A stretch of 64,000 bases of DNA, taken from the NCBI GenBank assembly GCA_903922605.1, contig CAIXUG010000061.1, positions 1 to 64,000 on the forward strand, written 5' to 3'. Origin of the DNA: an uncultured Verrucomicrobiota bacterium (GTDB taxonomy: Bacteria; Verrucomicrobiota; Verrucomicrobiia; Limisphaerales; UBA9464). The notes below the pieces were generated by a model. The model was not told the origin of the DNA. It saw nothing but the letters and a program-made list of their open reading frames with translations, and searched no databases. The position numbers and the translations under genes were made by a program. Within the stretch, counting starts at the first letter, position 1, and each line of letters opens with the position of its first letter. Shown here one piece after another: positions 26,105 to 34,999 of the stretch.

Positions 26105-27610
<1,506 letters not shown>

Positions 27611-27660
27611 AGAAACAGATCTCCTTTATTTTTTCTTCTGCTGAACTAGATTATCCCACG

Positions 27661-28305
27661 ATGTTCGTCGTCCGAAACCAGAGCCTGTCTGCGACGATGG
27701 AGTTGAGTTTTCAGACTCCCGCTCCTTTTGAGAAAGACGTCCTCAAAGGCATTGCAAACACCTCACTAGGCGCCTTCGAAAAATTCGGGTTGCGCGGCAG
27801 CCTGATCCTCCAACGGGTTGGTGACGCCCTCTTTGACTACGACCTGTCGTTCAGCCTGTTCAATGGGCAGGCAACCTTTCGCATCGGCGCCGAAAAAGCC
27901 TTTGTCAACGTGCAGAATGCGCGGGGCCGCAAAGATTTGGAAATTGTAGCTCAGTGCATGGCGTCTGCCTTGGACTGTTTTCAAGTCCGACCTGCTTCAC
28001 GAATCGCGATACATGGGAACTGTCATGCGCTCTTCGAGCAGGCGGAAGACTGCGAAGCGTTTTTTAAAACGTTCGCAGACCCGGCGGCCAATATTGTCGA
28101 TGGTGGCCGAATCAGCTTCGTCCAAGAAACGGGGTGGCCAAGCCCGGTTCGGGTTTTGGTGGAACGCTCGCTCTCGTCTAAGAACGCCGCATTTGTTACC
28201 TGGTCAACCGAATGGCCTGAGGCCAATCTTGAAAACCTGCGTAAGATCGCCGATTGTTGTGGCAAGGCGACCGATAAAATCGGGCTCCATCTTGAGTTTG
28301 AATGA
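27661..28305 (+). CDS. Hypothetical protein (214 aa), first gene of an acquired three-gene unit
   Basis: I do not recognise this 214-residue protein. It starts at ATG 27661 (MFVVRNQSLSATMELSF), just after an AT-rich stretch (27611-27660) that may hold the promoter. It has alternating beta-strand-like and helical segments and conserved-looking aromatic and Asp residues (DALFDYDLSFSLFNG, GGRISFVQETGWPSP, SRIAIHGNCHALF) but no signal peptide, membrane helix or catalytic motif that I can name. The gene is less GC-rich than carB upstream. It overlaps the next gene by four bases (ATGA), indicating translational coupling. Confidence 0.65.
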   Translation: MFVVRNQSLSATMELSFQTPAPFEKDVLKGIANTSLGAFEKFGLRGSLILQRVGDALFDYDLSFSLFNGQATFRIGAEKAFVNVQNARGRKDLEIVAQCMASALDCFQVRPASRIAIHGNCHALFEQAEDCEAFFKTFADPAANIVDGGRISFVQETGWPSPVRVLVERSLSSKNAAFVTWSTEWPEANLENLRKIADCCGKATDKIGLHLEFE

Positions 28306-28679
28306 ACAATCTTGAACAAATCAACAGGCTCTCGGCTTCGTATCCGAGCTCTATTGCTTTGTTTCAGCCAAGCCGCTTCCAAGGGCGACTGCAATCGGAT
28401 GAGAGACAAACCGTTCCCGGGCAAATCGGAAGCCCATTTGTTTCTGGGCAAGGTTTTTTTGCGCTCTCGGAGAAACGATTTCAGGCGGTTTCAATCCCAT
28501 TTTATTTCCATCTGCCAGATGGAGGCCTGAACAGGAGGCACTTCGGCTCCCGTGAGTTCGATGAAGAGCATTTTCCGGATCGGTCAGGTTCGCCCTACTT
28601 CAAAAACGGCATTCTCGTTCATCGCGCGGGAAAGACGATCACGTCCAAAGATGTCGAAGACGCGCTTAACGACGAATGA
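28302..28679 (+). CDS. Hypothetical protein (125 aa), possible antitoxin partner
   Basis: The ATG sits in the ATGA overlap with the preceding gene. The 125-residue product has no recognisable domain; it contains FYFHLPDGGLNRRHFGSREFD and a C-terminal basic stretch (HRAGKTITSKDVEDALNDE). It precedes the PIN-domain gene by three bases and is therefore positioned like a VapB-type antitoxin, but it is longer than usual and shows no obvious AbrB, RHH or Phd DNA-binding signature. Alternatively it is an accessory protein of the unit. GC content is low relative to the window. Confidence 0.6.
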   Translation: MNNLEQINRLSASYPSSIALFQPSRFQGRLQSDERQTVPGQIGSPFVSGQGFFALSEKRFQAVSIPFYFHLPDGGLNRRHFGSREFDEEHFPDRSGSPYFKNGILVHRAGKTITSKDVEDALNDE

Positions 28680-28682
28680 CCA

Positions 28683-29108
28683 GTGCATCTTTTGGACGTC
28701 AATACACTGATCGCCCTTGCTTGGGAAGGGCATGAGCATCACGCGGCTGCTCACGTTTGGTTCAGAACCAACGCCAGCGCGGGCTTCGCCACCTGTCATG
28801 TCACTCAGAGTGGATTTGTCCGACTAAGTCTTAATCGTAAGGTCGTTGGCCGTGCCATTTCCTGTTCGGAGATTTTGCAGAAATTGAACAGTTTCACGAA
28901 CAATCCCAGCCATGTTTTTTGGGAGGACCGTCCACTAGAGGTCTCGGACACAATATGGGCCTCGGTGACTGGCCACAACCAAGTTACCGACACAAATTTG
29001 TTTCTGATCGCCAAGCGAAATCAAGGAAAGCTCATCACATTTGACGGAGCGATCCGTAACCGAGTTGCTCAAGACGAGCAGAACTGGGTTGAAGTGCTTG
29101 GCGGCTAA
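28683..29108 (+). CDS. PIN-domain ribonuclease, VapC-like toxin
   Basis: The 141-residue product (GTG start at 28683) is a PIN-domain protein. Conserved acidic residues are Asp5 in LLDVNTLIAL, Asp103 in VTDTNLFLIAK and Asp121 in ITFDGAI; the TQSGFVRL segment (41-48) matches the PIN subfamily in which this position is T-Q-x-G-F-x-R. These form a Mg-dependent RNase active site, used in toxin-antitoxin systems to cut tRNA or rRNA. It is the last of three closely packed genes. The antitoxin would be one or both upstream proteins, which is unusual. Transferred origin is suggested by lower GC. PIN assignment is firm; toxin role is inference. Confidence 0.8.
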   Translation: MHLLDVNTLIALAWEGHEHHAAAHVWFRTNASAGFATCHVTQSGFVRLSLNRKVVGRAISCSEILQKLNSFTNNPSHVFWEDRPLEVSDTIWASVTGHNQVTDTNLFLIAKRNQGKLITFDGAIRNRVAQDEQNWVEVLGG

Positions 29109-29138
29109 ATTGCTGGGCTCTATAGCGCACCAAGCGCC

Positions 29139-29216
29139 TCACAGCAGCGCCAAGATGATCAGGCCGGAGCCGAGGGCCAGGGCGAGTCGTAGGAACAGGA
29201 TTTTGTGAGGGAGCAT
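29139..29216 (-). CDS. Possible 25-residue membrane peptide
   Basis: Minus-strand ATG 29216 opens a 25-codon frame coding MLPHKILFLRLALALGSGLI plus ILALL: two basic residues, then one hydrophobic helix. It lies directly downstream of the ClC channel gene (38 bases after its stop) on the same strand. It could be a short inner-membrane peptide or chance; no homolog comes to mind. Confidence 0.3.
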   Translation of the reverse strand: MLPHKILFLRLALALGSGLIILALL

Positions 29217-29253
29217 GTTAGTAAAATGAGGTGCCCGTGACGGGCGGTTAAAG

Positions 29254-33688: not shown

Positions 33689-33877
33689 ACTTCCGCCGGG
33701 CAGGTGTTCCGGGCCGAAGGCATTCCCGCAGGCCGCACCGAATCCAACGCCATTGGAGACGGCCAACCCCACTGCCTCGCCGGCTCCTTGTCGTTCCCTG
33801 TAAGTTTTACCCGCATCGTCCGACTTGTCGGATACACGGCGTCACGTATTGTACCGGAGCGCCGAAACAGAAAGCCT

Positions 33878-34999
33878 ATGCAACAGTCCAAAATTGCCGG
33901 TTTCGCCGCCGCCCTGCTACTGGCGGCCGGCCTCATTGCGGTAACCTACGGCACCGGCCGTGCGCCCGCCGGCGAACCGGCCACAATTCCCCCAGCAAGC
34001 ACCATGAGCGATTTCAAGAAACCCGACCCGACGGAGCTGAAGAAGAAGCTCACCGCGCAACAGTTTGCCGTCACCCAGCAGTGCGGCACCGAGCCCCCGT
34101 TCCGCAATGCCTATTGGGATAACCACGAACCGGGCCTTTACGTGGACGTGGTCTCGGGCGAACCGCTGTTCAGCTCGCTCGACAAGTTCGACTCGGGCAC
34201 GGGCTGGCCCAGTTTCACGCGCACCGCAACCACCAACGGCGTGGTCGAAAAGGCGGACCGCGAGTTCGGCATGGTGCGGACGGAGGTGCGGTCGAAGCTG
34301 GGGGATTCGCACCTCGGCCACCTGTTTGACGACGGCCCGGCGCCGACCGGGCAGCGCTATTGCATCAACTCCGCGTCACTGCGCTTCGTCCCCCTCGCGA
34401 AGATGCAGGCGGAAGGGTTTGGCGCGTATCTCGGCCCGTTCGTGAAGGCGGGCCTGATCAAGGCCGACGCCGCCACCGCCGCCACCGCTGCACCGGCGAC
34501 TACGGCGACGGCGAAACGTGAGACCGCGATTCTGGCCGGTGGGTGCTTCTGGGGCGTGGAGGAGATTCTGCGGAAGATTCCGGGCGTGCTCGAGACGTCG
34601 GTGGGCTACACCGGCGGCACCACGAAGAACCCGAGCTACGAGGAAGTCTGCACCGGACGCACCGGCCACGCCGAGGGCCTGCAAATCGTCTTTGATCCGT
34701 CGAAACTCAGTTACGAGGAGCTGCTGAAGGTTTTCTTCCGCATGCATGACCCGACGACACGGAACCGCCAGCATAACGATGTGGGCACGCAGTACCGGTC
34801 GGCCATCTTCTACACCAGCGACGAGCAGCGGCAGACCGCCGAGCGCGTGGTCGCGCAGACCGACAAGTCCGGCCGGTTCAAGCGCCCCATCGTGACCGAG
34901 ATCACCAAGGCGTCAGAATTTTATCCCGCGGAGGATTACCACCAGAAGTACCTCATCAAAAATCCGGGCGGCTACAATTGCCACGTGCTGCTGGACTGA
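33878..34999 (+). CDS. Secreted MsrB-MsrA fusion, methionine sulfoxide reductase
   Basis: This 373-residue protein reduces both diastereomers of methionine sulfoxide. It has an N-terminal signal or anchor helix (about 6-24, followed by Ala/Pro-rich linker), an MsrB domain (about 45-190; [15 protein letters not shown] and catalytic Cys162 in [11 protein letters not shown]) and an MsrA domain (about 213-370; Cys223 in [48 protein letters not shown]). The order B-A is the reverse of the more common A-B. The MsrB part lacks the zinc-binding CxxC pairs. Start 33878 gives the signal peptide; the open frame from 33704 adds 58 non-conserved residues. It protects exported proteins from oxidation. Confidence 0.9.

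Follow-up and report, generated by a model that had tools for sequence, protein, structure and literature searches.

What kind of system is encoded by three closely spaced genes that end in a PIN-domain gene and are flanked by the N-terminal half of carB on one side and by an oppositely oriented ClC channel gene on the other? We analyzed these genes, termed g1, g2 and g3, in a 64,000-nucleotide stretch of contig CAIXUG010000061.1 from an uncultured Verrucomicrobiota bacterium (the window, meaning this whole stretch) and in related genomes. An initial annotation of this DNA had suggested a new tripartite toxin–antitoxin or defense module. The three genes do form a conserved and acquired unit that includes a VapC-type PIN protein, but the unit is not of a wholly new kind. 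We propose that it is a variant of VapBC in which the antitoxin head has been replaced and a shared partner, g1, has been gained that probably guards the antitoxin and senses a trigger, a reading to which we assign an even chance of being right.

Organization and acquisition of the cassette

The three open reading frames of 214, 125 and 141 codons are all present as first annotated, with g1 and g2 overlapping by ATGA and with g2 and g3 separated by 3 bases (28680–28682) (Table 1). Their GC content is also lower than that of the flanking genes, as had been claimed, at 0.51–0.55 over positions 27500–29250 versus about 0.60–0.69 for carB and the ClC gene.

Table 1. Features of the cassette and its upstream flank in the window
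Feature	Position	Strand	Description
carB N-terminal half	26105..27610	+	Flank outside the unit
Acquired cassette	about 27612..29134	.	Missing from the sister genome G004, where both flanks are collinear with the window
g1	27661..28305	+	ORF; 214-aa protein of an uncharacterized Verrucomicrobiota family; proposed antitoxin partner/sensor
g2	28302..28679	+	125-aa VapB-type antitoxin, assigned by its tail; overlaps g1 by ATGA
g2 C-terminal tail	28590..28676	+	Residues 97–125, PYFKNGILVHRAGKTITSKDVEDALNDE; VapB-like toxin-binding tail
g3	28683..29108	+	141-aa PIN-domain RNase toxin, Mtu_PIN/VapC family (TIGR00028); GTG start

The view that the unit was acquired is supported by G004, a sister genome within the genus, which is collinear with the window on both sides and carries other genes between. 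The match ends at window position 27611, one base past the carB stop codon, and restarts at 29135, with nucleotide identities of 96% and 90% in the two flanks. The G004 interval between the flanks measures 2.96 kb and contains genes unrelated to the cassette. Therefore, the acquired block comprises just the three genes.

The carB gene of the window encodes the N-terminal half alone (501 aa) and ends inside the oligomerization domain, and the C-terminal half is located on another contig (G000:C1:137509-137580); the genus mates that were searched look alike in this split. In a genome from another family (G698), a g1 cassette of a different type, type (a) below, directly follows the same carB half (L039, G698:C35), which is 85% identical. 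Despite this common site, the two g1 proteins are merely 21% identical. The carB 3' end may be a preferred landing site or insertion hotspot. In G003, carB is intact, and a degenerate second copy of its 3' part (L190, 3016–3202) follows approximately 1.4 kb downstream, beyond another gene, perhaps as a trace of insertion at the carB 3' end. Elsewhere in the window, a long ORF at 33704–34999 looks by eye like a fused MsrB–MsrA methionine sulfoxide reductase.

Recurrence of the three-gene unit

A search for the three genes as a conserved neighborhood, proposed in the initial annotation, showed that their order recurs, which speaks against a chance arrangement. The genome G065, from another family of the same order, contains the same three genes in the same order with ATGA overlaps at both junctions (L006/L057), and its proteins are 42% (g1), 34% (g2) and 54% (PIN) identical to those of the window. 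Decayed versions are present in two further genomes: a broken g1, a 94-aa g2 and a frameshifted PIN gene in G826, and a partial g1 near the contig end together with a PIN remnant in G564. The unit is rare: among 320 genomes of the order, 10 contain g1, and at the level of the class the count is 15 of 384. Scans of genome contigs returned only the G065 contig, once more, with g1 and no match with g2 alone, and a search of viral contigs and plasmids yielded no relatives.

g3 belongs to the VapC family

The g3 protein matches the NCBIfam model TIGR00028 ('TA system VapC family ribonuclease toxin') with 101.1 bits, above the cut-off of 73.6, and its Pfam PIN match is under the Pfam cut-off. The G065 relative shares the conserved residues D5, D103 and D121, which agrees with the earlier recognition of a VapC-like PIN protein with its Asp residues conserved. 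The identity of g3 as a VapC-type PIN toxin is thus well supported at the level of sequence.

Mtu_PIN toxins occur in many genomes of the order (61 of 107). Outside G065, the PINs closest to that of the window share 41–47% identity with it and are paired with classical RHH VapBs; one of them, 45% identical, comes from the same genus (G002, L130). A 58-member PIN tree places the g1-linked PINs in two distinct, well-supported clades set among PINs that have other VapBs. The first clade contains the window and G065 (support 100/100). The second contains G826, whose row was read across the frameshift, and G564, whose row is a fragment, along with the PINs L150 and L161, which have other antitoxins (support 100/96). 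The presence of g1-linked PINs at two places in the tree requires at least two joinings, or one joining with several losses.

g2 carries a VapB-type tail behind a probably replaced head

An N-terminal DNA-binding domain is typical of antitoxins, although it is not universal. Neither g1 nor g2 has a Pfam, NCBIfam or PADLOC match, and PHROG matches are weak only. The libraries thus bore out the earlier statement that neither partner has a recognized DNA-binding domain. The description of both partners as unrecognized holds for g1, which is large as had been noted, but not for g2, which became recognizable by an approximately 30-residue VapB tail on comparison with the VapBs of relatives.

The upstream partners, read for about 80 Mtu_PIN genes, are mostly RHH or AbrB proteins of 75–100 aa, and many of them share a C-terminal pattern ending in T..x.V..L..E even though their heads differ. 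A tail profile was constructed from 37 classical VapB tails, selected by eye and with the g2 proteins left out, and was scored on 832 real ORF C-termini. The g2 tails of G065 (17.0 bits), the window (16.2 bits) and G826 (10.6 bits) ranked as the top three of the 832, followed by a next score of 7.2 bits. Their scores were reached by 0, 0 and 1 of 2000 shuffles, respectively, the G826 value being tied by the one shuffle. The assignment of g2 as an antitoxin, based on its VapB-type C-terminal residues, is well supported by these comparisons. Furthermore, the tail of the G826 g2, VITQGEIDDALDD, is similar to that of the VapB paired with the sister PIN L150, PITQEEIDDALDAD; the tail therefore appears to move together with the PIN, with only the head being replaced.

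The first ~95 residues of g2 have no Pfam or NCBIfam match to an RHH or AbrB domain, and the low-confidence AlphaFold model of this part lacks such a fold. Structure prediction of the two partners had been suggested as a check. The g1 model is confident, whereas the g2 model shows order only in the tail, with a short hairpin and a helix at residues 99–123, and is poor at residues 1–92 (pLDDT about 43). The g2 model was built from just three sequences, so its low confidence is no proof of disorder. FoldIndex is borderline for the N-terminal part, and disorder in this part is possible.

g1 adopts a predicted duplicated fold

The g1 family alignment consists of 19 members that are 18–42% identical to the window g1 and are named by no family library (Pfam, NCBIfam, PHROGs or PADLOC). 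A PDB sequence search with the g1 profile returned nothing. TIGR04255, considered as a possible relative, was rejected, with no TIGR04255 match in any g1 member and no paper found. The structural model of g1 (pLDDT 92, pTM 0.84) displays two similar halves of a strand-helix-strands-helix arrangement; an internal repeat is undetectable in the sequence by profile, although the model looks duplicated. This confident model predicts a duplicated alpha/beta fold that resembles TATA-binding protein (TBP) and AdoMetDC. The best PDB matches in Foldseek are AdoMetDC/prozyme (E 5e-6) and TBP (E 2.7e-5), and the Z-scores are 8.8 for guanido kinase C-domains, 8.2 for AdoMetDC and 7.5–7.6 for TBP, with low TM-scores and with Z near 8 possibly reflecting a common arrangement only. 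g1 has no sequence match to SecB, and SecB is absent among the fold matches listed, which does not exclude a SecB-like fold. An HTH or RHH match is likewise absent from g1.

Does g1 bind DNA? The resemblance to a DNA-binding protein such as TBP, the lack of a recognizable DNA-binding domain in g2, the first position of g1 in several operon types and a 7-base inverted repeat just upstream of the window g1 are what would be expected if g1 were the operon's own repressor, like PaaR or omega, doing the DNA binding lost by the antitoxin and leaving g2 alone to neutralize the toxin. However, a Z-score near 7.5 can mean a common arrangement only, and 18 of the 19 family members are acidic (pI 4.9–6.1, charge −2 to −11), unlike most DNA binders. 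Moreover, no shared upstream repeat is evident in the seven loci inspected. We consider a repressor function of g1 unlikely.

g1 precedes exchangeable effector genes

The genes behind g1 encode unrelated effectors and g1 keeps the first position, as a shared control module would be expected to do. In addition to the PIN units, three other operon types and a solitary form were observed. In type (a) operons (G654, G524 and G698), g1 is followed by an 'NWDG' protein, which matches the PADLOC model PDC-M32A in the C-terminal part of that model (E about 1e-8), and by a third protein that is weakly similar to the gene product behind PDC-M32A. In type (b) operons (G531 and G015; L038, L054), g1 is followed by a protein of 205–224 aa and then by an MBL-fold enzyme similar to LmuA/PDC-M48B, and this three-gene operon is possibly an undescribed defense system. 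The type (c) operon (G833) consists of g1, a PDC-M32A-like protein and a 181-aa protein. Finally, g1 has no evident partner in family f154 (L042–L051) and in G489, about ten genomes in total (type d). The occurrence of g1 alone in these genomes implies that g1 has some role without an antitoxin, and the solitary f154 g1, which is well conserved, suggests a role without a toxin.

A homology of g1 to the N-terminal module of PDC-M32A was rejected, since none was detectable (hhalign probability 0.8%). This different module also occurs before a PIN gene in the related genomes G595 and G522 (L196, L199). By eye, the module in these two genomes carries an antitoxin-type C-terminal tail, a parallel case of head replacement. 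The placement of g1 before varied genes, together with that of the PDC-M32A N-terminal module before a PIN gene, indicates that first modules and effectors have been exchanged in this lineage.

These arrangements could be explained if g1 were a phage-defense sensor or recognition protein that controls any effector behind it (PIN, PDC-M32-like or MBL) by direct contact and not as a chaperone, with g2 as a mere adaptor to the PIN. The PDC-M32A-like and MBL genes behind g1 match PADLOC defense-candidate models, the PDC-M32A N-terminal module likewise precedes PIN genes, and among viral folds g1 best matches an unnamed protein of 202 aa (E 6.5e-8, TM 0.54). However, the PADLOC systems concerned are unproven candidates, g1 lacks both a match in PADLOC and a detectable relation to the PDC-M32A N-terminal module, and a defense island around the window unit is not established. 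Direct sensing is thus rather unlikely in our judgment.

The solitary g1 genes, along with the fact that classical VapBC pairs function without a third gene, also fit a scenario in which g1 is an unrelated passenger and g2–g3 is an ordinary two-gene VapBC with a divergent antitoxin. This scenario is poorly reconciled with the ATGA overlap of g1 and g2 in both intact cassettes, the g1–PIN units in two PIN clades and the position of g1 at the head of other operons, and we regard it as highly improbable.

Proposed mechanism and implications

The initial annotation had named two observations that would refute a new module, a wide occurrence of the first two genes without the PIN gene and the pairing of the PIN gene with a classical VapB in relatives. 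Both are found in part: g1 is widespread without a PIN gene, and the nearest PINs outside G065 have RHH VapBs. Given these observations and the recognized g2 tail, the unit is interpreted as a VapBC variant with a replaced head and a shared extra gene.

In the mechanism that we favor, g3 would be the toxin, acting as a PIN-domain RNase, and g2 would neutralize it by occupying it with the C-terminal hairpin and helix as VapB tails do. The usual RHH or AbrB head of g2 would have been replaced by about 95 residues of other, poorly structured sequence. g1 most likely binds this N-terminal part and keeps the antitoxin folded or shielded from proteases. An encounter of g1 with a trigger, for example a phage protein during infection, would let the antitoxin go and free the PIN RNase. 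Two observations run against this mechanism in addition to the absence of a g1 sequence match to the toxin–antitoxin chaperone SecB. First, a common g1-binding site would predict a shared N-terminal motif in the second proteins, but none is detectable between g2 and the NWDG proteins. Second, g1 stands alone in about ten genomes. A defense role for the unit is plausible by analogy with the other g1 operons.

More broadly, and tentatively, g1 might found a new three-component class of toxin–antitoxin or defense control. Proteins of the g1 family, with their duplicated TBP/AdoMetDC-like fold, would act as the partner or sensor common to effectors as different as the PIN RNase, PDC-M32-like proteins and MBL-fold enzymes, and would have been joined to PINs more than once by VapB head replacement with the tail kept; we consider this wider claim somewhat doubtful. 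The g1 family is undescribed and seemingly constitutes a control module that is interchangeable among several toxic or defense-like effectors lying behind it. The cassette also points to a clear case of a VapB tail retained while the DNA-binding head is replaced, and tail profiles from local relatives can reveal more antitoxins that curated libraries miss. If g1 does guard the antitoxin and sense phage, the unit would exemplify chaperone-type toxin–antitoxin control without a recognizable SecB.

Comparison with known systems

VapBC systems with Mtu_PIN toxins (TIGR00028) share with the unit the toxin family, the kind of antitoxin tail and the antitoxin gene directly upstream of and adjacent to the toxin gene, an order kept in G065. 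The unit differs in the extra gene g1 in front and in g2, which is longer (125 versus about 75–100 aa) and has no recognizable RHH or AbrB head. Because g2 lacks a DNA-binding domain, the unit is filed as a VapBC variant and not as a canonical member.

PaaR–PaaA–ParE and omega–epsilon–zeta are three-gene systems with a separate small DNA-binding repressor. They resemble the unit in combining an antitoxin that lacks a DNA-binding domain with a third protein, but g1 is larger than these repressors, acidic and TBP-like in fold, with no HTH or RHH match. The PADLOC candidate PDC-M32 is connected to the g1 family through the operons that share a second gene like the PDC-M32A C-terminal part and a weakly similar third gene. 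In contrast, the window unit contains neither gene, its three genes have no PADLOC match, and no homology between g1 and the N-terminal module of PDC-M32A is detectable.

In the partner swapping of Panacea-type antitoxins, a shared antitoxin domain is combined with many different toxins (PMC10440598). The g1 family is similar to Panacea in pairing a shared module with many toxins, but here the common element is g1, a protein separate from the antitoxin, whose tail seems to accompany the toxin.

In toxin–antitoxin–chaperone (TAC) systems, including CmdTAC (PMC5105189, PMC6377645, PMC11618068), a chaperone resembling SecB shields the antitoxin (PMC5105189, PMC6377645), and TAC can defend against phage (PMC11618068). 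The unit resembles TAC in its three genes and in the proposed extra protein that tends the antitoxin. TAC antitoxins have a chaperone-addiction extension, and the extra ~95-residue N-terminal part of g2 may or may not be of this kind. It differs from TAC in the duplicated fold of g1, the putative nature of its chaperone role and the gene order of partner, antitoxin and toxin. We do not claim TAC membership because g1 has no SecB sequence match; TAC is nevertheless the closest working model for the unit.
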